Below are positions 103 to 15,388 of a stretch of 16,672 nt of DNA, piece by piece. Below the pieces are notes generated by a model. The model made no database searches. It saw only the letters and a list, made by a program, of their open reading frames with translations, and was not told where the DNA came from. How positions within the stretch are numbered: the stretch's first letter is position 1; each line of letters starts with the position of its first letter. The position numbers were made by a program, and so were the translations under genes. Source of the stretch: an uncultured Eubacteriales bacterium (GTDB taxonomy: Bacteria > Bacillota > Clostridia > Peptostreptococcales > Anaerovoracaceae); NCBI GenBank assembly GCA_902797195.1, contig CADBRY010000256.1:1-16672 (forward strand), in the 5' to 3' direction.

Positions 103-2109
103 TTATTGACCGACCTGTGCAATCGTTCGCCCATCCAGCTTCGTCCATTCTTTTCTACCATTAGCAGATCGTCCAAGAATAACCGCAGCTGCGGCAGAAA
201 CGCTGTCAAACAGACAATCTACTACAAACGTATTATTGACAATAGTACCGTTTCGAATCAGTTCTTGCCGGAGATCATAAGAGCTCTTCTGAATTCCCTC
301 TGTACTTGTTGCAGCGATAATGCTTCCCGCTTTTATAAGGATGGCATCTCCTCCCTGCAAGAAACCAATTGCGTTGCTACCACGCCCAGCCAGATACCAT
401 TCTGCTCCATCCTGTTGATCTGAAACTTTCAAATTCCATTTTTCCTCAAATACGGAAAGAAGGTATTGCTGCCGTTTGCTGACAACCTCTGGAGTCCATT
501 TTTCCTCATTGATTACCTGTGTTGTTAATGTATATGATGATGTCCCGTTTTTGGACTTGAAATACTTTGCCTTCTTAATGGCAAAATCATAGTTTTGTGC
601 AGCAGAATTCCGTTGTCTGGTAAGGGGAACCAAGTTGCCTATTCGATTCAGCCAATATTTTCGTATATTAGGCTCTGGCCAGAGAGTGATCCATTCTCCA
701 CCATCCCGTAAACTCTGCGGTAATACATGCTCAATCGTAAACAGTTTTACGTTATAAGAAGCACCCCCATCGCTCACAAAGGAATCAAGTCGCTGGATGA
801 TATAATTACGCCTCATGGGAGGCATTGAATATACCTCGCCGTTGAGTGCATCCATAAATTCCCGCTTTTCCCATTCTGTGAGTTCAATTGATGTCAAAGG
901 ATCTTTGGCACCGGTAGCTGACCTCGCTTCCATTTCAACAAGAAGCCACTTATATCGATCCATACGATGATTGACATCACGTCCGGTTACCAGAAGGTAG
1001 GATGCCAAACGCTCCAGCTTGCTTAAGAACCACAGCATGTAACGGGAATCATTATGGTATAATGAAAAAAATTTGATAGCAGGAGGCATCCAGTCATAGT
1101 TATTAGTCTTATTCAGCCAGAATAAACACCGGTTGATCTCCTCTGCATATTGAGTAGAAGAATATTCACAGTTCTTTAACTGGATATATGCCTCCGAATA
1201 CGGAACCAGATACTGATCAATCAACTCGATCGGTTCGATATGGTTGGTAACATACTCTCTGAACTCATCCAACAGGTTTTTCTTTGGCCGTTCTTTTGAA
1301 AAAATCGTTTTTGTATGCGTAAAAAGCTCGTTGTATCCTTCACGTCCTGTGTCATTTTCAAGTTCTTCCCATTTATCCGTGTATTCCCGCTGTAATTCAC
1401 GTGGGAGTCTGCCGATCGTTTCTGACTTTATGATATCCGTCGGAAGCAAATCCAGCCCTCTGCTGTTCATGACTGAGAAAATACGGAACGCTGATTCCTG
1501 GTTATTCGTCGATACTCCAACAAGAAAACACTGGTTGAGTAAAAATGAAGAAAACTTCAGAAGATCTTCTTCTCTCGGAAAATTCTCTGCAAGTTTCTCT
1601 CTCAGTAGCTTTGCATTACTCTGTATATGACGCTTTGAATCTGTATCTAGCGTGACAGGATCAATTTCTAAAAGGGCATCAAAATTGACATTCTGAATGT
1701 ATTGGCAGAAGAACGGCTGATCCCATTCACGTAAAAACATTCGTGGCTGTGCTTTTATTCTGGCGAGTTCATCCCCAGGCTCCTGTAGCCGCTTCATACA
1801 GGATTCTTTGCGTCTCTCTGTAAAGCGTTCTGCCATTGCAGCAAAAAGGATAGACAGGGTAGTAAGCCGTTGCTGCCCATCAATCACATCGGCATAACGT
1901 TTATTTTCATCTTTGATCATGACAATACTGCCCAGAAAATAGTTTTCTGCTGAGCGAGTACTGAAAAAGTCATTAAGGTCATCGAAAAGCTTGCCCGTCT
2001 CATCTTCCGTCCAAGCGTAGGGACGTTGATACACAGGAATATGATACTCAAAATCTGAACTGAATATCTTATCCAGCGGATATTCTTTCCCGGTAATTTG
2101 ATTGCTCAC
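103..2109 (-). CDS. DUF262-DUF1524-DUF4357 protein, GmrSD-like nuclease (fifth gene of defence operon)
   Basis: 668 aa protein, probably a nucleotide-dependent DNA endonuclease of the GmrSD (type IV restriction) group. Seen: an N-terminal DUF262 domain with YQRPYAW (27-33) and the signature DGQQR (77-81). A C-terminal DUF1524-type His nuclease region follows, with TIEHVLPQ (458-465, His461) and NRIGNLVPL plus NSAAQN (about 488-506). The last ~90 residues (about 575-660) resemble DUF4357, including the GRSANGRKEW signature. Family knowledge: in GmrSD and BrxU the DUF262 part binds and hydrolyses nucleotide and the DUF1524 part cuts DNA, often modified DNA. The start is GTG at 2109, with GGAGG at 2117-2121 seven bases upstream; the nearest upstream ATG (2123) is out of frame and stops at once. 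The gene follows the helicase after 131 bases on the same strand. Its last codon is 102 bases from the window edge and I see no terminator there. Role as the system's effector is inferred. Confidence 0.9.
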   Translation of the reverse strand: MSNQITGKEYPLDKIFSSDFEYHIPVYQRPYAWTEDETGKLFDDLNDFFSTRSAENYFLGSIVMIKDENKRYADVIDGQQRLTTLSILFAAMAERFTERRKESCMKRLQEPGDELARIKAQPRMFLREWDQPFFCQYIQNVNFDALLEIDPVTLDTDSKRHIQSNAKLLREKLAENFPREEDLLKFSSFLLNQCFLVGVSTNNQESAFRIFSVMNSRGLDLLPTDIIKSETIGRLPRELQREYTDKWEELENDTGREGYNELFTHTKTIFSKERPKKNLLDEFREYVTNHIEPIELIDQYLVPYSEAYIQLKNCEYSSTQYAEEINRCLFWLNKTNNYDWMPPAIKFFSLYHNDSRYMLWFLSKLERLASYLLVTGRDVNHRMDRYKWLLVEMEARSATGAKDPLTSIELTEWEKREFMDALNGEVYSMPPMRRNYIIQRLDSFVSDGGASYNVKLFTIEHVLPQSLRDGGEWITLWPEPNIRKYWLNRIGNLVPLTRQRNSAAQNYDFAIKKAKYFKSKNGTSSYTLTTQVINEEKWTPEVVSKRQQYLLSVFEEKWNLKVSDQQDGAEWYLAGRGSNAIGFLQGGDAILIKAGSIIAATSTEGIQKSSYDLRQELIRNGTIVNNTFVVDCLFDSVSAAAAVILGRSANGRKEWTKLDGRTIAQVGQ

Positions 2110-2240
2110 AACGTTGCCTCCATTTCAAGTTTTTACTGTTCGCCTTTTTCAGATTTCATCTTCCCGTTTTCCATTGTTTTTTCCCTCAGAAATATGTGAT
2201 CTTATTCTGCCTTCCGAAACGGATTCCCTGCGCCATAATA

Positions 2241-5012
2241 CTACCAGCCTTTCATGAGCTCTGCAAATTTCTCCCGTTTATCAAGAACATCCGTGCATTT
2301 TTCCCAATCACCACAGTCAGGAATTTCCATTTCATACTTGATAATAAACGGATTCTTCTGTGGTACCTTGTTGATCGCCTCCAGCGCTCTCTGTTCATCA
2401 TCCTGCGCCATAGCAACCCATACATCCTCCAGGACTTCTGGGATCTGTCCAAACATATCATAGATGGCCTGAAGTCGATCCGAGAGCTTTTTATGGACCT
2501 TGTCCTCCACACTGTCCTTATATCGCATGTTGTAAATCAATATCGTATCTGCCATCTGGCCAATTCGCTGAATCCTTCCTTTGCGCTGCTCCAGTCTGGT
2601 TGGATTCCAGGGCAGGTCCACATTGATAAGCGTCTGCAGCGTCTGCAGATTCAAGCCTTCACTTGCTGCATCCGTTCCTACCAGCACTTTTATCGTACGC
2701 GCTTTCACCATAGCCTTCAGTTCTTCTTTAGCGCATTTTTTGAATAGCCCGTTCCGATAAATCCCGCTCTTATCTCCTCCTGCATAAAGACCTATGTCGG
2801 TATTCTCAAATTCAAGGCTCAGAAGTTCTGCAATATAATTTGCACTGTCATAATACTGAGAGAATATGATGCATCCCTTTTGTAACCAGCCCCCCTCATC
2901 TTCAACTCCATTCTCAAGGATTGATTTAACCCGAAGGTACTTCGGGTCTGTATCACGATTGCTGTTCAGAACATCGACCAGACGTGCAAGACAATCCTCT
3001 TCTTCCGGTGTCAGCTGCTTAACTTCGCTGAGTTCCTCCTTATCCGAGCCCTCATCGCTATCATCCTCATCTGTTAAGGTATCATAAACGTTCTGTAAGG
3101 TTTGCTTACTATCTCTGGTCCAGGCAAGCATCTTCTTGGCGGTGTTTTCACCCGCGAGCATCGTGCTTCCAATACGCTTGAGCATCAGGGTGGACATGAA
3201 TCCCCCGCCTTTTATGCGTTTGGAAAGCAAGTGACAGAACTCCTCCGCTATTCGATATGCCTGAAGCAGATAACCGGACAGTTCCAGCGCCTCATCGTCC
3301 TTTTCTCCCAAGAGATGGACGTTAATCTTCTTCAGATATGGTTCGCCGGTTTCCTTGTTGATCGTATTTTCCAGAAACTCTCGTGTACGGCGAACGATAC
3401 AACGCACATAGGGATTCAGTGTCAACACAAATTGGTCATCCTGATACAGTTCTCTAATTTTCATCTGCAAAGAGCGTCGCAGTGTATCAAATCTGTCCTG
3501 AGAAAGCACGGATACTTCGTCCGGAATATCCATCTGATCCCGCAGAGTTCCAATTCTGCGGTTGCTCTCCGTGCGAGCCGGAAATGGATTCCGCACAATT
3601 TCCCACATTTCAGGATCACTGGCAGGTGGCAACGCAGCCTGTGAAATATAGTCCAGACCGGTTTGCGGCGTTTTTCGCCATACGCTGTAACTGTCGCCAA
3701 TCACCTTGCTGGCTTGTTTCGGACGGCCCAGTGCCTCCAGAAGATCGAACGCTTCAATGGGATGAATCTGTACCGGTGTAGCCGTTGCCAGCAACATGCT
3801 GTGCGTCTGAAACGTTATTTCCTGCAGGAATCGGAGCAGGTTATTTGGCTGTGCCTTATGCGCGTTGGCATCCTTCCCAATGTTCTTTCTTCGCGCACGA
3901 TGTGCCTCATCCAGGATGACACATTCATACTTAAGCTGTTTCAGCAATTCGGCTGCCTCTGTTTTGGCTGTAATGATTCCCTGTGAGACAATACCGATTT
4001 TGCGTGGACACTTCAGAATGCCGCGTACACTGTCACACACGTAATCAAAGCCATTTTCATCGCGCCAGCATTTACCGGTCCATACCGCTGCCGGGATATC
4101 CAGCATGGTAAAAATCTCATCCTGCCACTGGTACAAAAGCGTCTTTGGAACGATGATCAGAACAGGCTTATCTCCATAGAGGGCCATGAGCTTTGCAGAC
4201 ATGGCCAGCTGCAGCGTCTTTCCCAATCCAACCATGTCCGCAAGAACCAGCCGAGCGCCGCCTTTCGTCTTGTGCTCCTCAAATGCCCGCATGACAAAGT
4301 ATTTCTGATGAGCCCATAGGCCATATTCATTTCTGTATACTGGCTCTTCTGCTGCAACTGACGCAACATCCGCCTCCTGGTTTTCACGCCAGCTTTTCAG
4401 TGTTATGGGATGACGATTGGCAATACGCCTGATATCCTCAATCACAAAATCACTGAGGGGCACCGCACACTTATGATCCCAGAAATAATCAAACTCATCC
4501 TGCACCCAGTCTGCAGATTCCCGGCTGTCATCTTCCCAGACAATTTCATAATTCGTCGTCAGGGCACTCTTCGTCTCATTCATGCTGCCGATGAACGCGA
4601 TGCGGTGGCCATCCTCATATGTGATGACCCCCGCTTTTCCATGCATCAAGCCATACACATCATCCGGCAGAACACGGATCTCCATTTTCCCGGATACCAG
4701 AAAACCGTAGAAGCGTTGCAATCGCTCCATCTCCTCCGGGGTAGTGAACTGCTCCTCCGGCTTAAACTGGCACCATTCCTGTTTTAGCCGCATTGCCGCC
4801 AAACCGGCCACCTTGACATCATCCGGTGCCAGACCGCTATTGCAGATGATCCGGATTTTGCCGGGAATTTCCTGCATTGCCTCCCCGGCAATTTCCAGAA
4901 CAGAAGAACAGAAATACCCAGCGATACGATCATAGGAAACAGCCCCCTTCAGGCGATCCACAAGATACTGCTTTCCAAGATCGGTCTTACGGGAGGAAAA
5001 ACGTTGCAGCAT
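2241..5012 (-). CDS. PLD-like/SNF2-family helicase of anti-phage system
   Basis: 923 aa from the chosen start. The N-terminal ~200 residues form a phospholipase D-like domain with a single HxK motif (MHGKAGVI, about 123-130) followed by GSMNET (142-147), as in PLD nucleases that dimerise. An SNF2/RapA-like helicase follows: Walker A ADMVGLGKT (258-266), DEAH (368-371), motif III ATATP (409-413), and the C-terminal lobe with VGTDAASEGLNL (778-789) and QRKGRIQRIGQ (809-819). A short acidic linker (DEDDSDEGSDKEE) separates the lobes. The likely role is ATP-driven movement on, and possibly cleavage of, phage DNA; DISARM DrmD and DrmC carry comparable activities as separate proteins. Start choice: the open frame extends to a TTG at 5066, but that TTG has no Shine-Dalgarno sequence and the extension lies over a hairpin. 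ATG 5012 has AAAGGAG six bases upstream. The stop is TAG. The gene lies 178 bases after the methylase. Confidence 0.92.
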   Translation of the reverse strand: MLQRFSSRKTDLGKQYLVDRLKGAVSYDRIAGYFCSSVLEIAGEAMQEIPGKIRIICNSGLAPDDVKVAGLAAMRLKQEWCQFKPEEQFTTPEEMERLQRFYGFLVSGKMEIRVLPDDVYGLMHGKAGVITYEDGHRIAFIGSMNETKSALTTNYEIVWEDDSRESADWVQDEFDYFWDHKCAVPLSDFVIEDIRRIANRHPITLKSWRENQEADVASVAAEEPVYRNEYGLWAHQKYFVMRAFEEHKTKGGARLVLADMVGLGKTLQLAMSAKLMALYGDKPVLIIVPKTLLYQWQDEIFTMLDIPAAVWTGKCWRDENGFDYVCDSVRGILKCPRKIGIVSQGIITAKTEAAELLKQLKYECVILDEAHRARRKNIGKDANAHKAQPNNLLRFLQEITFQTHSMLLATATPVQIHPIEAFDLLEALGRPKQASKVIGDSYSVWRKTPQTGLDYISQAALPPASDPEMWEIVRNPFPARTESNRRIGTLRDQMDIPDEVSVLSQDRFDTLRRSLQMKIRELYQDDQFVLTLNPYVRCIVRRTREFLENTINKETGEPYLKKINVHLLGEKDDEALELSGYLLQAYRIAEEFCHLLSKRIKGGGFMSTLMLKRIGSTMLAGENTAKKMLAWTRDSKQTLQNVYDTLTDEDDSDEGSDKEELSEVKQLTPEEEDCLARLVDVLNSNRDTDPKYLRVKSILENGVEDEGGWLQKGCIIFSQYYDSANYIAELLSLEFENTDIGLYAGGDKSGIYRNGLFKKCAKEELKAMVKARTIKVLVGTDAASEGLNLQTLQTLINVDLPWNPTRLEQRKGRIQRIGQMADTILIYNMRYKDSVEDKVHKKLSDRLQAIYDMFGQIPEVLEDVWVAMAQDDEQRALEAINKVPQKNPFIIKYEMEIPDCGDWEKCTDVLDKREKFAELMKGW

Positions 5013-5018
5013 AAAACG

Positions 5019-5025
5019 CTCCTTT
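5019..5025 (-). promoter_or_regulatory. Ribosome binding site fixing the helicase start
   Basis: On the minus strand the sequence reads AAAGGAG, then six bases, then ATG at 5012. It decides in favour of the shorter helicase reading frame over the TTG at 5066. Only four bases separate it from the 3' arm of the hairpin at 5029-5059, so folding of that hairpin could affect ribosome access. Confidence 0.75.
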
Positions 5026-5028
5026 TTG

Positions 5029-5059
5029 AGCAGCGGCCCGATTTTTCGGAGCCGCTGCT
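5029..5059 (-). promoter_or_regulatory. Strong intercistronic hairpin upstream of helicase
   Basis: The arms AGCAGCGGC-CCGA (5029-5041) and TCGG-A-GCCGCTGCT (5046-5059), plus-strand notation, pair over 13 GC-rich base pairs with one bulged base and a four-base loop. In the operon mRNA (minus strand) the stem is followed by CAAAAAGGAG, with no U-run, so it is not a simple terminator in that direction. On the plus strand it is followed by TTTTCC, so it could stop antisense transcripts. In the mRNA it could act as a processing or stability element between the methylase and helicase cistrons, or as a translation modulator. Confidence 0.7.
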
Positions 5060-5190
5060 TTTCCAATATTCAACTTTGACAAATCAACTATACGTCGTGC
5101 AGGTTCTATTGTGCGTCTCTTCGTTGGCTATTCGCTCCCTCTGCATTGCCAAATTTGAAAATGCATCTCAGTTCGACATGGCCAAATGTA

Positions 5191-8064
5191 TCAGATATGA
5201 TCGTTATCAATTAACGTATAAATATGCCCAGCCATTGCACCAGCTTCATGCCAGTGCCCCATGGTATCGATGTTTTCTGTATCCCGGAGGAACGACAACA
5301 GCTGCCGAAGCATATCGCGCTTGTTCCAGTAATCCGAGAGATTGTTTTTAATATGCCAGAATCCCTTTTCCGGTTTTTCATCTTCCTTGATTGCCACATG
5401 AATCGCAGCCAGCACAAGGCGAAGAATGGACTGCTCAAATTCCGGTATCTCGCTGACGGTACGCATCGCGAATTCCTGCGGCGTCTTCAGCCGCGCCGTA
5501 TTGGCGCGTTCAGAGGCCATCAGCTGGCTATACCCACTCAGGCCAAAGCCACGTGCATACTCCTGGTATGTGCTTATCTGATAGTTCCCGTGTTTCTCCG
5601 CTTCCAGTCCCTTCACATAGAACCGCTCCGCAGGACAAAGTTCACGCCACAAGAAGTTATCAAAGTCCAGCGGGATGATAAAGTCATAGGCAATCTTCTT
5701 GGCTCGCTCAATCAGCTTCACGACCTCAGACTTGCTTGGATCATGAATTGCCTGATCCAGCTCATAATCCAGGTCAATTTCACCAATAGATTTATATCCT
5801 GTCAGCACTTTCAGGGATGCAGCATATGCCGCCAACACATAATCCGGATCTGAGAAATTCGGATCTTCCATGTCATCCAGTTTCTGCATGGATTCGATCT
5901 GACGCTTTACCTCCGCCTTGATGTCAGCAGCCAGTTCATCCAGAAACGCCTCTTCATCCCCATGCTGTTTGCGCAGTACCAACAGAACGGTTCCTTTCAC
6001 GTAGTTACCGTCCTTCAGGCCACTAGCATCTGTTTCTGTAGCTATATTCCAAGCTGCGGTAACAGCAAGTCCTGCTTTCCACATAATCAATGCCAACTGT
6101 GCCCATACAGCAGGATCTGAGTGTGTGAACATGACGATCTGCATCCCATCGTCACTCATGTGACGAGTCAGGTTACTATAGATATCAATCATGGTCTGAC
6201 TGAATTGTTCATCTCCACGGACTGCTAAGATGCGTTTACTATCTGTATACCAATCAGGGAACGCTTTGTTAAGGAAAGCCTTGTCCCATGCAAGAAAAAA
6301 TTCAGACAATTCATGATAATTGACTGCATCTGCATAAGGAGGATCCGTTAACCAAATATCTGCTATATGATCACAATCGCATGCGTCTACTAATGTTATA
6401 TTGCTATTTGGATTCAGTTTATATGTTTTTCCTACCGTGAACCATAAAGTTGATAATAGAGGAAGGGTCTTGACTCCATAACTCATCAGTGTATTTAAAG
6501 CCTGGTTGTAAAATGTCTGTTCTGATTTGTCACAGCCAGCATGCCATCTGCACAGTTTCGACTGGTAATCAACACACTTGTTATATCCTAATATGGATGC
6601 TCTAAGTACAAAATCATCACTAGCTAATTGCATTTGCTTTCCAAATAATGCAAGCATAAAAATTCCACGTGCGTTAAAAAGCTGATGCCAATAACTCCAA
6701 CCACGTTCACGAATAAGTTGATCTGTATTATAACCGTTTTCGATCTCCATTGAAGGAATCAGCCCCTGTTCTTGCCACTCAGCAAAATGGTTTACCACAA
6801 GATCATGAACTTTTTTTTCATTTAATAGATCACGTTCACTTGGCGCACAGTAATAACGCTTTCCATCCGACGTTTCATAACGGATAGCATACAGACGCTC
6901 GTGATATACATCATCAGGACGTGATTCAAATTCATGTTTTTCCCAACGCCGAAGACCGTAAATAACATTTCCCTGATCATCCACGCGATCATGCCGCAAT
7001 GAAGATATAGGAGTAGATTTGCCGCAGTGTGGACAAATCATGCTGTTATTCTTACTTGTTCCATTTTTTTGAGCTTCCGCAAGTTCTGCAGTAGAAACAT
7101 TGTCATGAATGGTAATATCGAATTTACCATTCGCCTCATGGAGTCTGGCAATTACTCGGCCTGCTCGAATTCCTACGACATAAGAAGGAAGAAGAGGAAC
7201 ACGCCATCCACACTCAGGACAATCCGCCTCAACACAATATAGATATGACAGTGCACGGTCTCCCTTTTCATTGTGTTCAATCCCCAGTGCACAGATTTCC
7301 TTATCAATAGAATCATAGGCTTTCTGTTGAAAATCTTTGGTTCTATTGATTTCTTCGGGTGAGGCCCCACAGATATGCAGGTCAGCCCATGTCAGAAGAC
7401 CGGCAATTGGATTCAGATCACTGGCGTAGGTGTCACAGCCCATACGGGCTGCCTCAAATGGAATGGAGCCTCCGCCGCAAAAGCAATCACCCACCATTAC
7501 ATTGTGACCAAATTTCATTATAGATAGCTGATTGATCAACTCAGATAAACTACGCGCATTCGTCCCAAGATGATTGTTGATGTCCGCCCATGCTTTATCA
7601 GAGATGGCATCCAGCTGCTCTGGACGCATGCACATGGCAATTTTCTGATCATAGCTGAGGGTACTAAAAGCAGCTTCCTCCATTTCGGCACGAGGCGCAC
7701 CGACAATGAGCTTAGGCTTAGCTGATGTGTCATCAAACCATCCGCCATATTGAGTCCAAAGTTTCCGATGCTCTTTCAGAATTGACATCAAATCAGAGCT
7801 GGAGAACTTCTTTTCTTTCCTCAGAAGCAGGCCTTCATTGTCCATGCTCATAATTTTCAAAAAGATCTCCATGTCCTTCTCAGGATCATCTGTAGAGGGA
7901 AGAAGGCAACCCAAGATAGCAGCTCGCACAAGCACCAGTGGCTTTCTTCCCCACCATTTTCCAAGACCCGTTATTGTCTGTCCCTGAGAGGATTTTCTCT
8001 CTTTATAGCTTTCCTTGCTAACCTTTGATACTGGAAACTGACGTTCAATAAAAGCTTGGGTCAT
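5191..8064 (-). CDS. DUF1156 DNA methyltransferase of anti-phage system
   Basis: 957 aa, probable SAM-dependent DNA amino-methyltransferase (N6-adenine or N4-cytosine) that marks host DNA. Seen: an N-terminal DUF1156 segment (about 7-56, with GKWWGRKPL at 35-43), a SAM-binding motif around DCFCGGGSIPFEAARMG (193-209), then the catalytic DPPY at 574-577. Between them are two Cys clusters, CVEADCPEC (277-285) and CPHC (344-347), that could form a zinc ribbon. The motif order (SAM site before DPPY) is that of alpha/gamma-type enzymes. The start ATG overlaps the DUF3780 stop (ATGA) and has AGGAGG at 8075-8080, ten bases upstream. Odd feature: about 6240-7350 (residues roughly 240-600) is clearly AT-richer than both flanks, suggesting that the specificity region was acquired separately. 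The catalytic motifs are intact, so I expect an active enzyme. The recognition sequence cannot be read from sequence. Confidence 0.92.
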   Translation of the reverse strand: MTQAFIERQFPVSKVSKESYKERKSSQGQTITGLGKWWGRKPLVLVRAAILGCLLPSTDDPEKDMEIFLKIMSMDNEGLLLRKEKKFSSSDLMSILKEHRKLWTQYGGWFDDTSAKPKLIVGAPRAEMEEAAFSTLSYDQKIAMCMRPEQLDAISDKAWADINNHLGTNARSLSELINQLSIMKFGHNVMVGDCFCGGGSIPFEAARMGCDTYASDLNPIAGLLTWADLHICGASPEEINRTKDFQQKAYDSIDKEICALGIEHNEKGDRALSYLYCVEADCPECGWRVPLLPSYVVGIRAGRVIARLHEANGKFDITIHDNVSTAELAEAQKNGTSKNNSMICPHCGKSTPISSLRHDRVDDQGNVIYGLRRWEKHEFESRPDDVYHERLYAIRYETSDGKRYYCAPSERDLLNEKKVHDLVVNHFAEWQEQGLIPSMEIENGYNTDQLIRERGWSYWHQLFNARGIFMLALFGKQMQLASDDFVLRASILGYNKCVDYQSKLCRWHAGCDKSEQTFYNQALNTLMSYGVKTLPLLSTLWFTVGKTYKLNPNSNITLVDACDCDHIADIWLTDPPYADAVNYHELSEFFLAWDKAFLNKAFPDWYTDSKRILAVRGDEQFSQTMIDIYSNLTRHMSDDGMQIVMFTHSDPAVWAQLALIMWKAGLAVTAAWNIATETDASGLKDGNYVKGTVLLVLRKQHGDEEAFLDELAADIKAEVKRQIESMQKLDDMEDPNFSDPDYVLAAYAASLKVLTGYKSIGEIDLDYELDQAIHDPSKSEVVKLIERAKKIAYDFIIPLDFDNFLWRELCPAERFYVKGLEAEKHGNYQISTYQEYARGFGLSGYSQLMASERANTARLKTPQEFAMRTVSEIPEFEQSILRLVLAAIHVAIKEDEKPEKGFWHIKNNLSDYWNKRDMLRQLLSFLRDTENIDTMGHWHEAGAMAGHIYTLIDNDHI

Positions 8065-8693
8065 TTCGGCGTATCCTCCTCATCCAGATTGTCAAACATG
8101 GATATCTGTGGCTTTTCACGGATTGGATTTTCACACAGCGCAAAGCGAAGCGCTGTGCGCCAACCCTTTTTGTCATTGAGCCCGCCGGTGGAGGCGTTGG
8201 TGGTGGTATACAGCCACCAGCGCTCCTCGGGCATGAGTCCTTTCCAGTTACGAACTGCGGTTGGAATGTTACTCGGGTCGCAGTCTTCAATGCCCCAGAG
8301 CAATACCATCATTTCTTTCCCAAATAGGCGTTCAACAGGGGTCCCTCCTATGACAAATTTCCCTGCTGACAGCTTTTTTTCTTTCAGACGGGCATTGAAC
8401 TCCGCTGTGAAATCTTTTTGGAGTTGACTCCACTTATGCCTCGATATCTGGAGACGCAGAACATCACCTCGCTGAATCACCTGTCCATTCGCATATACAG
8501 TCAGAGCGTTTATATCCTTCACACCAGCCTTGGTCATCAGTTCCTCTTTGCTTAGTCCCTCAGGGATCCAGGCATAACGTTCATATATCTCAATTGGCTG
8601 TTCTGAGCCTTTTGGTGGGATGACCACATAGAAATGATTCTGAGATTCTGCGGGATCGTATCCAAAGCCGAATATCTGCTTCTTTACGCTCAT
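8061..8693 (-). CDS. DUF3780 protein of anti-phage system
   Basis: 210 aa, DUF3780-like, with no catalytic motif that I recognise. The best conserved-looking part is the C-terminal half: LLWGIED (about 130-136), RWWLYTTTNA and GWRTALRFALCENP (about 158-190). The family is known almost only from gene clusters with DUF499 and DUF1156 proteins, so a structural or adaptor role in a methylation or ATPase complex is likely but inferred. The last 15 residues are acidic and contain QISMF (196-200), which fits the bacterial sliding-clamp (DnaN) binding consensus QL[SD]LF. It overlaps its neighbours by four bases at both ends (ATGA), with GGAG at 8704-8707 ten bases before the ATG. The three proteins are therefore probably made in a coupled way and may act together. 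Confidence 0.9.
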   Translation of the reverse strand: MSVKKQIFGFGYDPAESQNHFYVVIPPKGSEQPIEIYERYAWIPEGLSKEELMTKAGVKDINALTVYANGQVIQRGDVLRLQISRHKWSQLQKDFTAEFNARLKEKKLSAGKFVIGGTPVERLFGKEMMVLLWGIEDCDPSNIPTAVRNWKGLMPEERWWLYTTTNASTGGLNDKKGWRTALRFALCENPIREKPQISMFDNLDEEDTPK

Positions 8694-11600
8694 TGTTTAA
8701 TATCTCCATATTTATTAATCTCATTCAAGTCCAGTTTATTCAGCTCAACCCACCGCTTGAAAGCTGCTCCGGTTGCAAAATGAATCGCTTTATATTCAAA
8801 TTCTACAACTGCTTCCCGTCCGGCAAATGCCGACTCACGGATCAGGTCCACGGTTGCCTGCAAATTACCTGCATCATTCGGAACGGTGGCCGTCGTGATT
8901 TCCATATAGTTATTGGAATTCCCTTTTTCTGAAATTACAACCGTGAAATGCTTCACAAGCGTTCCAGGAAGTGATTTTAGAAGGTTAAATTCCTGATACG
9001 CTTCTGCAGTATCCGAGCATTTTTTCATCGTTTTTAATGTGAATTCAAGAGGAATCGTATCGTTTATCTTCTTTTCCCCTAGAGATATAACATTTTCTTT
9101 TACCGGAATGTCCTTTTCCTCTACCAGCACTCCGTTGTTGTACACCGCCGTCCGGACAAACTTGCAGCCTTTAGGGATGACGAACTCACCAACATATTTT
9201 CCTCCGGATTCCTTTGGATTGGATCCATCCGTGGTATAGCGCACCTCAAAATGCGGATGTGTCTCAAGCTGCATCACATCACCTTTGCTCGTTCCTCTCT
9301 GCTCATAGCGGAGTGGAACGGTGCACATAAAATGCTTTGCATCACCCGTCGGATGAGGATCTCCGTGGGATTGATCCACACACAGGAACCATAGATCGGT
9401 CTCTTTGGTTACAAAAGGATTGGAGGCAACGGCAGAAGCTTCTGTGGGCTCGGCGCCAACATCATAATAAACAGTATTTCCATAAACACCGCGTACTTTC
9501 AGAGTAAATTCACCGGTCTTCGGGTCATATGAAAGCTGATCGACCGTTACCTCCGTCGGTTCCTTCTCGAAGGGGCCTTTCTGCAGGTAACCGCCAATAT
9601 CGCGCCAGATATCCCGATTTAGACAGTCTTTGCGCAGCTGTGCCATCTGATCCGGATGATACCACTGCCAGGATACTTCGGTGGCTGCCCGTTCCAGAAT
9701 CTGATTCCACGTCATTTCCTTCTGCGTGAAAATACGTGCCTCACACTTTTTCCGCAGCGTTTCAAGGAAGCGGTCATCCGTGGAGAAATCCTGGAATTTC
9801 TGTGCTTCCGCAAGTGTTTTTACAATCTGATCTTCCCCGTTGAATTTATTTCCCGCAAATTCCAGCTTAAAATCATCACTCGTCAGACCGCCCTTCGTGG
9901 GGTAATAGAGCGTGATAAACGTCTCGCGAATCGTTGAAAGCAAAGCAGTCAGCGCTTTATCTTCCTGTGCCTGTGCCTCGCGGTACTGCTGATCTGTTTC
10001 AGGCACATGCTCCTCTTTCATGCTGGCGATAATCTGCCGTATAGCAGAGAGACGCTTGCTGTTTTCGAACAGTTTCCGCATGACACTGCGCTGTCCAGTC
10101 AGGAACATAACCCGGTTCTTAAATGGAGCATTCCGATAAAATGCTTCCAGATCGGGGTGCATTCCGCTGCCCTCAAATGGCTCATAAATCACCAGAGCAA
10201 CTTTATGCTGGTCCAGGTTGATCTCATCAATTGCCGGCATGACATAAAGCAGTTCATAACATTTTTTCAGTTTCGGGGCAAAGGACTGTTCCAGGAACTT
10301 CCGTAAATCTTTCCGTGCCTGTTCATCGCTGTAACTGTCAACCAGGGTATTCATCTCCGCAACCATGTTCTTCGTGTTCTGGAAATAGAACCGGCCACGA
10401 TTATCCATCTTTAAATACCAGCACTGTCCCTTAATCTCTTCCAAGACTTTCTTGAACTGATTCATATCCAGTTCAGGCGCGCTAAGGTAACCTAATATTT
10501 CAGAATCACTGAGACCCTGCAGTCCGTGAGCTGTTTCGTTCAGTGAGGAAACCAGCAGAATTTTCGACACAGTCTGTGCGTAAGGGAAGTGAAAATCCTC
10601 TTCATACTGTGCATCAATCATCTCCGCGACAGCTTTTCCGTGCTGCGCAATATCATGGTTAATGGCGTTATCCAGAGAAGGCTTGATCTCCTTTATCATA
10701 TTGAGCATCATCTGATTATTGAGATCAACGTCAAATACATTAACCAGATACGAATTCTGAGCATTGCCGCTCTCATAGAACTGACGGATGATCTGTCTCA
10801 TCAGACGAATCAAGCCACGTGTCTGCTGAAAGCCCTGGTTTTCCTTAAAACGGGCGTAAAGGTCTTTGATAGAGGGATGGAAAGGATACGAATCTCTGAT
10901 TCCCACAAAGACCTTGTCAGCGGAATAGGACGTAAGTCCGGATTTGCCCGCCCGTGCAACAGCTTCTTTGAAACCTTTTGCGACCTCAATCACATCTAAG
11001 CTTTCCGCCGAAGGAAATGATTCAAACAGGCGTTTCTTGAGGATGTCGTAAATCTCATCGGAGTTTAACGCGACCGGTTCGATATTCAGTGCAATGCGGC
11101 CTGCCTCGTTCTCAAGTTCCTTAAAAGAGGACTGAAGCAGAGCGCTTCCCGATTCGTATGTCGCTTTCAAATCTGAAAAAACAAGACAGACGTTTGCCAG
11201 CTGTGCTTTTCCCAGTGCGCTGAACAAATTTGAAAGAGCCGTAATCGTAACCTGACACAAGTCAGAATGCCCGACTGAGATCGAACGCGCATTCTCCAGG
11301 TACGGAGGAAGCTCATCCAACAGAATCAGGGTTTTCTGCCCCTGAAGAAGGTTAATCCACGCAGACTCTCCCGGTGCTTTTAATGGAGAGTAATAGGAAG
11401 CAAATGCCTCTTTTTTGCCGAGTTGTTCTGCCAGACTTCCCCATATACCAAATTCAGCGTCGCTCTCACGTCCCGAAAAGGCAATCACTTTAATCGGGCC
11501 AATCGAATCATAGGAAACCCCTAGAATCTTCTTTCTGAGAGCAGGACTGGCACACAAAAGTGCCAATGCCAGCATGTTATGTGTTTTTCCACCGCCCATT

Positions 11601-11821
11601 GACTGAGTCAGTTTAACTACGCTGGCAGCAGATTTTCCATCAAAGCGATTAAATACCGTATTGAAGAGAATATCCATTCCTCTCGTTTTGAAATTCTCAT
11701 CGAAGAAACGTTCCGGATCAATACGACCTTCAATCAGATCGCTGAGATTGAGTACATCATCCCGTGTAGTATCGACAAAAACACTGTCGCGTGGCTTACA
11801 CAGTTCGGCAACGGGTTTCAT
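8690..11821 (-). CDS. DUF499 P-loop ATPase of anti-phage system (first gene of operon)
   Basis: 1043 aa from the chosen start. Seen: Walker A MGGGKTH (75-81) and Walker B TLILLDELPPYL (about 164-175), so a P-loop ATPase of the DUF499 family. A predicted beta-rich section near the C-terminus (about 852-904, with VRYTTDGSNP) resembles the small chitobiase-C-terminal-like or Fn3-like folds. Family knowledge: DUF499 proteins are large cytoplasmic ATPases that sit beside DUF1156 methylases and helicases, in a role that may parallel the BREX ATPase BrxC/PglY. Start choice: the frame is open to TTG 11896 and ATG 11878, neither with a Shine-Dalgarno sequence. ATG 11821 has GGAGG at 11833-11837, eleven bases upstream, and gives the family-like N-terminus MKPVAELCKPRDSV. 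As the promoter-proximal gene it may set expression of the operon. It ends in an ATGA overlap with DUF3780. Confidence 0.92.
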   Translation of the reverse strand: MKPVAELCKPRDSVFVDTTRDDVLNLSDLIEGRIDPERFFDENFKTRGMDILFNTVFNRFDGKSAASVVKLTQSMGGGKTHNMLALALLCASPALRKKILGVSYDSIGPIKVIAFSGRESDAEFGIWGSLAEQLGKKEAFASYYSPLKAPGESAWINLLQGQKTLILLDELPPYLENARSISVGHSDLCQVTITALSNLFSALGKAQLANVCLVFSDLKATYESGSALLQSSFKELENEAGRIALNIEPVALNSDEIYDILKKRLFESFPSAESLDVIEVAKGFKEAVARAGKSGLTSYSADKVFVGIRDSYPFHPSIKDLYARFKENQGFQQTRGLIRLMRQIIRQFYESGNAQNSYLVNVFDVDLNNQMMLNMIKEIKPSLDNAINHDIAQHGKAVAEMIDAQYEEDFHFPYAQTVSKILLVSSLNETAHGLQGLSDSEILGYLSAPELDMNQFKKVLEEIKGQCWYLKMDNRGRFYFQNTKNMVAEMNTLVDSYSDEQARKDLRKFLEQSFAPKLKKCYELLYVMPAIDEINLDQHKVALVIYEPFEGSGMHPDLEAFYRNAPFKNRVMFLTGQRSVMRKLFENSKRLSAIRQIIASMKEEHVPETDQQYREAQAQEDKALTALLSTIRETFITLYYPTKGGLTSDDFKLEFAGNKFNGEDQIVKTLAEAQKFQDFSTDDRFLETLRKKCEARIFTQKEMTWNQILERAATEVSWQWYHPDQMAQLRKDCLNRDIWRDIGGYLQKGPFEKEPTEVTVDQLSYDPKTGEFTLKVRGVYGNTVYYDVGAEPTEASAVASNPFVTKETDLWFLCVDQSHGDPHPTGDAKHFMCTVPLRYEQRGTSKGDVMQLETHPHFEVRYTTDGSNPKESGGKYVGEFVIPKGCKFVRTAVYNNGVLVEEKDIPVKENVISLGEKKINDTIPLEFTLKTMKKCSDTAEAYQEFNLLKSLPGTLVKHFTVVISEKGNSNNYMEITTATVPNDAGNLQATVDLIRESAFAGREAVVEFEYKAIHFATGAAFKRWVELNKLDLNEINKYGDIKQ

Positions 11822-12067
11822 TTTCAGATTTTCCTCCTTTATAAGCAGCAACCTTTTTTCGGTGTCACTGTTGTTCATTTGCTCAAATCGAATCAACCGA
11901 CGGTCTGGTATCAGGTTCTCCTCTGTTAATTATCCTATGTCGAAACCGAATAATCTACCTCTGTTTTTTCAAACAATCAGCGGAGAATCAAAAGAATTCC
12001 GGCTTTGCTCTTGCATAGTTTTTCCACTTCTAAAGCACATCAAATAGCGTTCAAAATGTTTGTGACA

Positions 12068-12534: not shown

Positions 12535-14502
12535 ATGAAGACAACAAGAAAAAGCTTTCTACGTTTATCCTCCGGATTATTTGCTTTAATGTTCCTTCTG
12601 ACAGGGTGCAGCACAAAGGAACCCGTACCAACCGCCGAACCAACTGTTACGATCACTGCTACAAATACACCTGCGCCTACCCCGACAAACACTGTCGTTC
12701 CGCCAGACACACCCACCCCGACGCCAATTCCGACACCAACCCCGACGCCTGTACCTACTCCTACTCCAACGCCTGCACCGACACCAACACCATCACCAAC
12801 GCCAGACCCCGTAAGCAGATTATCAGACACTCAACGTAACTCGATCAACATGCTTAACTGGCTTACTTATCTATCTCGGGAAATCAATGCTGCAAGCAAT
12901 AACCGTCTGTACATTGAAGATGTCTATTCGCTAATTGTGAACGAGACCTACCCCAATGCTGTTGATATACACACACAAGATCGTTTAAGAGGCATTCGCC
13001 AGGCATTATCTCGGTATCGAATGGTAGATGTAAAACGTGAGCGGATTGAATACCTGTATGAACAGAATAAAGCAGCTGCTATTCGGTCGGCTATTCCAGA
13101 TCCTTTATCCATCCTGACTGCAGTTCGGGCACCATCTCTTGCCGGTCTCGCCACCACGGTTGTCTATATGGCAATTAACTCGCTGAACAGCTATCAGTCA
13201 GCTTCTTCCCAGGCAGATCTCCAGTTCCTAAACAGCGGTTGGGATTTAGAGGATGAAGCCCGTGAAGTTTTCGATGCCATCCGCTCAGATGCATATGACT
13301 ATATGCTGGATATTGTACGTGAATATGATCTTCCAGGGTATATGACCCTCAACGAAAACGCAGTGGACGAGTTTGTTTCATGGAAGAAAAATGATAATGT
13401 TGTCCGCAGAATCCAGTTTCTGGAATCAACGGTTGAAACATATAAAGGCTTCAGGAACTACTGGCTTGTGCTCGCGGAAAGCTATTTCAAAAATGGAGAC
13501 TATGAAAAGTGTCTGGAAGCCATTCATTCCTATGAGAAGTTAAACACAAGAATTTTTCGGCACGATATGGAATACGCAAAGATTCTGCCTTTGGTAATAG
13601 CAGCGGGTCAAAACAGCCTCAAAAAATCAGACTATATCCCCTTTGCTGAAAAGTATGCCAACCTGATTCTTGAAAACATTGGGACCGGCGACTGGGAGCT
13701 TCGTTATTTCGCCGCTCAGACGTTCGTTGACCTTTATAAGTCAACAGATGATATTGACTATCTTTGGAAAGCGTATGAAGAACTAAAAGATAATGTGAAT
13801 AACCTCGTTGATAAACAGAATGAATTGAACACTTCCTATCTTGCCGCTGTCAAAGACGAACCGATACCATCCGGAACAAAAAAAGATACAGAGGAACAGA
13901 TCAAAAGTTATAATAAGCTCCGCAAAGAGAAACGCAAAACTGAATTGCCCCCTGTCTATGAACCCTTGCTTATGAACTGCGACCTGCTTTTTGCTTTAGC
14001 TGAGCAGCTTGGTATTTCCAAAGCCGAGCAGACAACAATCAATAAAATTCTGAGGACGGAAGACGGTAACCTATTTCTTGTCGATAGTCTGGAAAGCAAA
14101 TATAGTTTCCCGCATGCGAACAGCATGAATTCGGACGATGGAAATGAGCTATTATATAATGGCAGTGAAATCACGATCCCTGCAAAATGGATATCTGAAG
14201 ATTATCAGATCACTCTATCCGTCACTGGGAATCACTCGGCTGAATTTACCGATTGGGTTGTAAAGAAAGTAAATCGTAAGACCGAAGGCGATCTTGCTTC
14301 CTTTACTGCTACTTTAACCAGCAAAGAGGCATCTGAATTCAAACACGAGCCCGGCGAAACAATAACAATTACCATTAATCCACATAGCAGTTATTGTGCA
14401 GATACATACCTTGTCAAATATAAAACCGTTGATGCGAAACCGAATTGGTATGATCACATAGTCATTTGGAACAATGACATCGGTTTTGAAAGGATCGAGT
14501 AA
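12535..14502 (+). CDS. Lipoprotein with Pro/Thr-rich linker, function unknown
   Basis: 655 aa. The N-terminus is a lipoprotein signal peptide: basic MKTTRK, a hydrophobic core and lipobox LLTGC with the lipidated Cys at 25. A Pro/Thr-rich spacer (about 45-92) then lifts the rest away from the membrane, as in many Gram-positive surface lipoproteins. The remainder is soluble: a mostly helical part (about 95-480) with a TPR-like stretch near 295-350 (ESYFKNGDYEKCLEAIHSYEK), and a probably beta-rich last ~120 residues. I recognise no enzyme motif. The start ATG has GGAGG at 12523-12527, seven bases upstream. The next gene begins two bases after its stop, so the two are probably co-transcribed and the products may work together outside the cell. 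It is divergent from the defence operon and nothing in the sequence ties it to that function. Confidence 0.88.
   Translation: MKTTRKSFLRLSSGLFALMFLLTGCSTKEPVPTAEPTVTITATNTPAPTPTNTVVPPDTPTPTPIPTPTPTPVPTPTPTPAPTPTPSPTPDPVSRLSDTQRNSINMLNWLTYLSREINAASNNRLYIEDVYSLIVNETYPNAVDIHTQDRLRGIRQALSRYRMVDVKRERIEYLYEQNKAAAIRSAIPDPLSILTAVRAPSLAGLATTVVYMAINSLNSYQSASSQADLQFLNSGWDLEDEAREVFDAIRSDAYDYMLDIVREYDLPGYMTLNENAVDEFVSWKKNDNVVRRIQFLESTVETYKGFRNYWLVLAESYFKNGDYEKCLEAIHSYEKLNTRIFRHDMEYAKILPLVIAAGQNSLKKSDYIPFAEKYANLILENIGTGDWELRYFAAQTFVDLYKSTDDIDYLWKAYEELKDNVNNLVDKQNELNTSYLAAVKDEPIPSGTKKDTEEQIKSYNKLRKEKRKTELPPVYEPLLMNCDLLFALAEQLGISKAEQTTINKILRTEDGNLFLVDSLESKYSFPHANSMNSDDGNELLYNGSEITIPAKWISEDYQITLSVTGNHSAEFTDWVVKKVNRKTEGDLASFTATLTSKEASEFKHEPGETITITINPHSSYCADTYLVKYKTVDAKPNWYDHIVIWNNDIGFERIE
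12709..12810 (+). repeat. Pro-Thr codon repeat (lipoprotein linker)
   Basis: Degenerate CCNACN hexamer-like repeat coding for a run of TP/PT dipeptides (residues 59-92), broken by occasional I, V, A and S. Codons vary, so it is not a fresh identical-unit expansion, but such tracts can change length by slippage. The opposite strand is open too and reads as a Gly-Val repeat, an artefact of the composition. Confidence 0.85.
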
Positions 14503-14503
14503 T

Positions 14504-15388
14504 TTGAAATATATGCAACTGCCTTTGTTGTTCTTCGTCGTTCTATACCTTTTTATTCCCGTTTCTGTTCTTGCTTCAAACAGAATGGAGCATGACAAGC
14601 AGCTCGAAAGGATTGTTTTTGGCAGAGAAAATTACTATGCTTCCCAGCCAAAAAACCAAAAAAAGGCAGTTGAAGCTCTTGAATGTGCTGTTTTTCTGTG
14701 TATAGACCAATACAATAATACCGGCAATAATGACCTCCGAACTCTCAAGGAATACGGTGTGCCTGGGCTGCCGGAAAATATAAACGCAATCAATTATACA
14801 GCCGGTTATGATCACAGAAAGTACACACATATAGGTTGGGTACCCATAATGCACCCTGAAAAAGGGGAATGGAATATAAGAAAAGAAATTCTGCTTTCAA
14901 CTGTCAATAAAGTCTTTGATTTCGGTCTATTCACGGATGTTAACATTTTGGGGTTAAAACCGGCTTACACACCCCAATGTGATGCGTTCAGTGCATTGCT
15001 TTACTATATTCATATTCTTGAGGACCTTGCTGCTCTAAAAGATTATGGACAATACAAATTAGAAGGTGCCTATGTCCTTCCACTCGCACGAGCACATGCT
15101 GATACAAATTCACCGGATATTTTATGGGATCTGACAACGCTGTATTTCCCAAATCTTTTTTCCAAGAGTGTAAAGGAATCCTTTGAATACAACGAGTTAA
15201 TGCAAAAATCGGGATCTTTAGCCCAAAGTGCACGATCTCTCGTCCAAAGAACAGGTGGAATTTATAACGAGGAGCGCTTTCTTGAATATAAAAATTACAC
15301 GCTTGAATTCTTGTTGTTATTACAGGATTACATTCCGAGACTTTTGCGAAAGGAATCTTTTTTTACCAGTATATTTCCTCCTGAATGA
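14504..15388 (+). CDS. Secreted protein of unknown function, partner of the lipoprotein
   Basis: 294 aa from the TTG start. The first 24 residues are a signal peptide (M-K-Y, a hydrophobic core and a V-L-A cleavage site before SNRMEHD), so the product is probably exported. Start choice: TTG 14504 lies nine bases after AAAGGA (14489-14494), which sits inside the end of the previous gene. ATG 14513 is too far from that site (18 bases), and ATG 14474 would add ten polar residues before the signal with only a weak ribosome site. The middle is rich in aromatic and His residues (YTHIGW, IMHPEKGEW), followed by a helix LLYYIHILEDLA and then ARAHAD. The H-x3-D in that helix loosely recalls zinc-dependent phospholipase C or S1/P1 nuclease folds, but I would not assign a function. 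Translation is probably coupled to the lipoprotein gene, whose stop is two bases before. Confidence 0.8.
   Translation: MKYMQLPLLFFVVLYLFIPVSVLASNRMEHDKQLERIVFGRENYYASQPKNQKKAVEALECAVFLCIDQYNNTGNNDLRTLKEYGVPGLPENINAINYTAGYDHRKYTHIGWVPIMHPEKGEWNIRKEILLSTVNKVFDFGLFTDVNILGLKPAYTPQCDAFSALLYYIHILEDLAALKDYGQYKLEGAYVLPLARAHADTNSPDILWDLTTLYFPNLFSKSVKESFEYNELMQKSGSLAQSARSLVQRTGGIYNEERFLEYKNYTLEFLLLLQDYIPRLLRKESFFTSIFPPE

Follow-up and report, generated by a model that had tools for sequence, protein, structure and literature searches.

Type-2 BREX-related (BR) systems, relatives of the bacteriophage exclusion (BREX) systems, have been described from 1120 taxa, of which 98% have DUF3780 and 83% an HKD-helicase that is named as the primary effector (Rakesh and Krishnan 2026, PMC12839542). 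GmrSD-type enzymes are listed there among the auxiliary effectors of BREX and BR loci. GmrSD-like genes are also reported as a semi-independent type IV layer embedded in Hma (helicase-methylase-ATPase) defence clusters (PMC11411939, also PMC12988326, citing the Payne 2024 preprint). Optional GmrSD layers have thus far been published for BREX, Hma and BR loci alike. A full-text literature search for DUF3780, whose coverage excluded most subscription papers and preprints, returned PMC12839542 alone. Here we compare with these systems a five-gene locus in the window, by which we mean the whole stretch of DNA analysed (16672 b, the entire contig CADBRY010000256.1, or G000:C256), from an uncultured Eubacteriales bacterium whose assembly comprises 1.55 Mb and is 78% complete.

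Five uninterrupted open reading frames (ORFs), all on the minus strand, fill positions 11821-103 of the window. This content, strand and extent agree with the preliminary description of the locus, and each product matched its expected family:

8690..11821, minus strand: DUF499 AAA+ ATPase with FnIII-like region (Pfam DUF499 E 3e-24, Fn3_assoc; NF042962 746 bits; PADLOC DUF499 602 bits)
8061..8693, minus strand: DUF3780 protein (Pfam DUF3780 E 2.8e-45)
5191..8064, minus strand: DUF1156 N6-adenine DNA methylase (NF042963 1282 bits; Pfam DUF1156; DPPY motif in the translation)
2241..5012, minus strand: PLD(HKD)-SNF2 helicase (NF042964 1235 bits; PLDc_2 at residues 36-196; catalytic residues)
103..2109, minus strand: GmrSD-type restriction enzyme with DUF262, DUF1524 (HNH) and DUF4357 (GTG start; Pfam, motifs, PADLOC)
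106..432, minus strand: RAMA-like C-terminal module (residues 560-668) of the GmrSD-type enzyme

By gene content and family profiles, the first four genes are a Type-2 BR system of the kind already published, and we consider it probable that the locus is a Type-2 BR operon carrying one optional, largely self-contained accessory type IV nuclease at its 3' end. The locus shares with Type-2 BR a DUF499 ATPase with an FnIII-like region, a stand-alone DUF3780 protein, a DUF1156 N6-methylase and an HKD-SNF2 helicase (HKD in place of TUDOR); the GmrSD gene follows this core, and PMC12839542 places such HNH enzymes among the auxiliary effectors. Hma also combines helicase, methylase and ATPase with embedded GmrSD-like genes, but as described it lacks DUF3780 and appears to match other DUF499-centred systems, whereas the window holds the form with DUF3780 and PLD (phospholipase D) and has its GmrSD gene after the core.

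Among the fetched loci in which all four core profiles matched, the order DUF499-DUF3780-methylase-helicase was identical in 63/63, always on one strand, so the four-gene set is not a chance assembly. The methylase and helicase exceeded the cut-offs of their NCBIfam "anti-phage" families (1000 and 1100 bits, respectively), while the DUF499 protein surpassed the Pfam cut-offs for DUF499 and Fn3_assoc and fell below that of NF042962 (DUF499_antiphage, 1200 bits); its translation contains GGGKT and LLDE motifs. Inspected by eye, the catalytic motifs in the translations of the operon genes are intact. Its reading frame is open over 8690-11896 (TTG at 11896) and the likely start is 11821 (Met26) or 11878, of which 11821 is plausible because the family models begin at residues 26-29. 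The DUF3780 protein surpassed the Pfam cut-off but reached 150.6 bits against an NCBIfam cut-off of 200, matching only model positions 40-159 of 184; its structure was predicted with high confidence (predicted local distance difference test score 90.7), and comparison of this model with the PDB gave no convincing match and no known fold. A Pfam scan of ten window proteins gave no match to a PglZ model.

The preliminary description had suggested that the GmrSD gene could supply a nuclease missing from the system. We reject this idea, since the PLD core of the helicase (HxK...GSxN) is intact: H124, K126, G142-S143-x-N145 and E156 are invariant in 17/17 aligned sequences, and the HKD-helicase is the named primary effector in PMC12839542. 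Judging from its sequence, the PLD-SNF2 helicase is presumably the primary nuclease effector of the window operon as well. With the operon assigned to a named system, the puzzle of the missing nuclease disappears.

The GmrSD gene itself encodes a DUF262-DUF1524 enzyme (Pfam GmrSD_N 1.4e-35, 123.7 bits; GmrSD_C 1.1e-25, 90.5 bits; DUF4357 3.8e-15), and its translation contains the QR, DGQQR and FxxxN motifs listed for DUF262 in PMC11411939, along with EHVLPQ. The best PADLOC model was Orf5 (488 bits, from a system that PADLOC does not name), with HEC-06 at 221 bits. The protein shares the DUF262 motifs and the DUF1524 HNH-type domain with the GmrSD family (GmrSD, BrxU/HEC-05, HEC-06, TgvAB, SspE) and differs from it by the C-terminal DUF4357 (RAMA-like) tail, an architecture on record since 2015 (PMC4619093).

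How often such a gene follows a Type-2 BR helicase could be counted. We fetched the best 80 of 173 helicase relatives in one-genome-per-species contigs, with up to 10 kb on each side, and used the 69 loci in which the DNA beyond the helicase measured 1 kb or more (11 with <1 kb were left out). DUF262 genes were sought with a profile of our own and with the GQQ[RN] motif, a search that divergent genes outside the Pfam-scanned slot could escape. A same-strand DUF262 gene began no more than 300 b downstream in 3/69 of these loci (4%; 95% interval 1.5-12%), namely L043 from Butyrivibrio, L059 from Thermoanaerobacter wiegelii and L098 from a Chloroflexi assembly. Extending the distance to 5 kb gave 5/69, adding L069 and L091. 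The viral collection yielded 24 loci, reduced to 18 by excluding L128, L130 and L133-L135 (weak, broken or distant helicase; L130 was used for its tail protein alone) and one with <1 kb, and 1/18 (L124) had a same-strand DUF262 gene within 300 b downstream. None of the seven plasmid loci examined, among 17 records found, had a same-strand DUF262 gene after the helicase; one of them (L150) has a DUF262 gene 1.3 kb away on the opposite strand. When 59 slot proteins were scanned with Pfam, GmrSD_N was found in five, and Pfam and our profile agreed on the same five (the window, L043, L059, L098 and L124). The remaining slot contents were varied and included Mrr-type nucleases (4/59) and AAA_21/AAA_15 proteins (3/59). 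Between the core genes, where 54 of 59 ORFs were scanned (five overlapping ORFs in L093 and L110 were dropped), AAA_15/AAA_21 proteins accounted for 8/54, and GmrSD_N was not among the matches listed (25 of 127 families). The genome loci nearest by helicase identity, L032 (83%) and L033 (79%), have no DUF262 gene, nor was PF03235 found anywhere in their genomes.

The few DUF262 genes found in the slot are strongly divergent (22-43% identity to the window GmrSD protein, mostly over short stretches) and carry different tails (DUF4357 in the window, AlbA_2 in L098, DUF4268 in L069), so from their sequences they look like repeated, separate recruitments. DUF262 genes are rare yet repeated cargo behind Type-2 BR helicases, and the question of their frequency now has a count. 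The preliminary description had proposed that the GmrSD gene might be a component of the set. An obligate component would be carried by most related operons, and the counts of 3/69 and 5/69, with relatives of the gene occurring apart from the system (see below), come close to the outcome that the description itself had named as refuting that proposal. The L098 protein, encoded directly after the helicase (12788-14893), has a Schlafen/AlbA_2 tail, and tandem DUF262 pairs follow the helicase in L043 (12772-17131) and L091 (13948-18209), recalling the two-protein TgvAB (PMC11411939).

To what extent position behind the helicase departs from the genomic background was gauged in 50 carrier genomes chosen from the 80 loci, mostly on longer contigs, which held 68 DUF262 matches in 206.5 Mb. 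At this genome-mean density, 0.0025 same-strand starts within 300 b would be expected, against three seen (50 loci); 7/68 matches sit at BR loci, two tandem pairs included (3/7 versus 7/68, p 0.046). Clustering in defence islands accounts for the enrichment within 300 b equally well, as the genome-mean control takes no account of islands.

Relatives of the window GmrSD protein occur in other settings. Its closest relatives (67-85% identity) are known here from protein sequence alone, without genomic surroundings. Blautia-family genomes carry a relative at 49-61% identity in 4/397, and DUF499, DUF3780, DUF1156 and the PLD-helicase were absent from the fetched 8-20 kb around all four. One follows an MmeI-type enzyme at a distance of two genes (L142), another adjoins a second DUF262 gene (L143), a third is at a contig end (L144) and the fourth sits amid apparent housekeeping genes (L145). 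A further GmrSD-DUF4357 gene (L155), in the genome of L097 on a contig other than that of its BR locus, accompanies a FokI-type enzyme and a D12 adenine methylase. In the family of the host, this GmrSD gene (E 1e-40) and an over-cut-off helicase were each found in 1/349 genomes, in both cases the window's own. Both genes were therefore probably acquired by transfer, together or separately. The GmrSD protein gave no match in the phage collection at E 1e-30, and a search of an E. coli collection at megablast sensitivity likewise gave none. A host-family genome holds the C-terminal piece alone of a related helicase (G007:C11:50344-51111, L146; model positions 639-895), and no other BR core gene was found in the 18.6 kb fetched around it.

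These distributions would suit a plain neighbour, a mobile restriction gene that came to lie behind the operon within a defence island and shares neither regulation nor function with it. The settings of L142, L143, L145 and L155 and the single occurrence in the host family fit this idea, as does the spacing within the window: the DUF499/DUF3780 and DUF3780/methylase junctions overlap by 4 b each, against a gap of 131 b between the helicase stop and the GmrSD start. It is nonetheless highly unlikely in our judgement, because the gene is the next one downstream of the helicase and shares its strand, an arrangement repeated in several unrelated loci, and same-strand DUF262 starts within 300 b are roughly a thousandfold above the genome mean.

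That recurrence is also a sign of possible coupling and so counts against a largely self-contained accessory, as do several other observations. The tail that the GmrSD protein has in common with the PADLOC model of long DUF3780 proteins is one feature arguing for closer wiring. The surroundings of two of the four Blautia-family relatives are only partly visible (the contig end of L144 and the 7.8 kb contig of L143), and the protein of L145 has no detectable DUF4357 tail. A 73% GmrSD relative (P0007) and a 78% helicase relative (P0144) both come from contigs of 29361 b, a hint that one near relative or more has retained the pairing. Finally, the authors of PMC12839542 hold that the auxiliary effectors of BREX and BR systems are "not sporadically acquired".

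The tail bears most directly on such wiring. It was modelled with confidence, as a putative RAMA-like domain, and on that model could connect the nuclease to the BR system. The module is also common to GIY-YIG-like proteins in the post-helicase slot of some other Type-2 BR loci. Among these is PDC-S14, a PADLOC putative defence candidate with a homologous C-terminal module, which combines a GIY-YIG-like head with DUF4357, in contrast to the DUF262-DUF1524 head of the window protein. The GmrSD nuclease might then be part of the operon machine, its tail reading the methylation set by DUF1156 or docking where a DUF3780-RAMA fusion docks in other loci, with an exchangeable nuclease on a common connector. 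We regard this as unlikely. Most DUF4357 genes occur in other places, and none of the 37 DUF4357 loci surveyed in Blautia-family genomes adjoins BR core genes. The tail was absent from every DUF3780 protein of the fetched loci (the fusion is known here solely from the literature and the PADLOC model), and GIY-YIG exceeded the Pfam cut-off in 0/5 BR-linked proteins. Moreover, binding of DNA by the MPND RAMA domain is sequence-independent and not raised by N6-methyladenine (PMC9963953).

That survey gave 55 DUF4357 matches in 49 genomes. The 37 loci comprise 33 that were retrieved because their match was over cut-off in a frame of at least 150 aa, and four added ones; two loci that qualified (G791:C19 and G916:C73) were left out. 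The proposition that DUF4357 genes always lie beside a DNA methylase failed a crude test, with a methylase-like motif within 4.5 kb in 8/37 loci versus 4/20 regions picked arbitrarily from these genomes, although on visual inspection three of the four motif contexts among the controls did not resemble those of a methylase. Under a second definition, set after the first result (HsdR, HsdS, MmeI and D12 seeds plus a stricter motif), the counts were 15/37 versus 1/20, or 13/35 versus 1/20 without the seed-supplying L142 and L154, though some of the HsdR-type matches come from short ORFs and possibly represent other helicases. By these sequence criteria, a preference of DUF4357 genes for restriction-modification loci is at most weakly indicated. 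In two loci (L154:612-4693 and L156:5009-11548), DUF4357 genes with GIY-YIG-like heads adjoin type I restriction genes (hsdR, with hsdS in L156); GIY-YIG was above the Pfam cut-off in L154, not in L156.

A more specific form of the wiring proposal has the tail as an exchangeable connector that ties the slot nuclease (GmrSD here, a GIY-YIG-like head elsewhere) to the adenine methylation written by DUF1156, as a RAMA fusion would on DUF3780, so that self DNA is spared by a methylation read-out on the nuclease itself. We hold this to be distinctly unlikely. If the tail were a methylation reader common to accessory nucleases and DUF3780, it would offer a testable rule for attaching extra nucleases without harm to the host.

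Returning to the accessory nuclease as the preferred reading, we can sketch how the locus would work, with the core steps deduced from the protein families along the lines of Rakesh and Krishnan 2026. The DUF1156 methylase would mark self DNA with N6-methyladenine, the DUF499 ATPase and DUF3780 would assemble on and inspect incoming DNA, and the PLD-SNF2 helicase would travel along and cut DNA without the mark. GmrSD would form a second, largely independent type IV layer in which DUF262 detects foreign base modification and thereby controls the HNH domain; the DNA of phages that evade the core through modification would then be cut all the same. The RAMA-like tail would add binding to duplex DNA and may adjust the enzyme to a methylated environment. 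The comparison with BrxU layering made in the preliminary description seems a fair one by analogy. Its further question, how self DNA escapes a modification-dependent nuclease beside a methylase, is less pressing than it was put: BrxU acts on modified cytosines and SspE senses phosphorothioate (PMC11411939), so an adenine-type methylase next door, as the operon enzyme is by family, poses no evident problem of self-cutting.

We infer the five-gene operon from gene arrangement, and co-transcription is putative. The helicase reading frame is open over 2241-5066 (TTG at 5066) and its family match begins at 5012, so the gap after the methylase is 124 b from the TTG or 178 b from 5012. This junction (5013-5190 for the longer gap) measures at most 100 b in 33/50 genomic four-gene loci, versus 124-178 b in the window, and several other loci have a gene inserted there; the long gap is possibly a scar or a promoter. 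The terminator scan placed no site in the 131 b helicase-GmrSD gap, and its window total of 12 against a shuffle mean of 13.9 was no better than chance. Neither tRNA genes nor tandem repeats were found in the window as an island border. Outside the locus, two same-strand ORFs of 655 and 304 aa (12535-15388, plus strand) had no Pfam or PADLOC match. We considered them as defence island mates and rejected this: the 655 aa ORF, whose only NCBIfam match was a weak one to the lipoprotein metalloprotease SslE (17.9 bits, cut-off 3000), resembles a predicted proline/threonine-rich lipoprotein.
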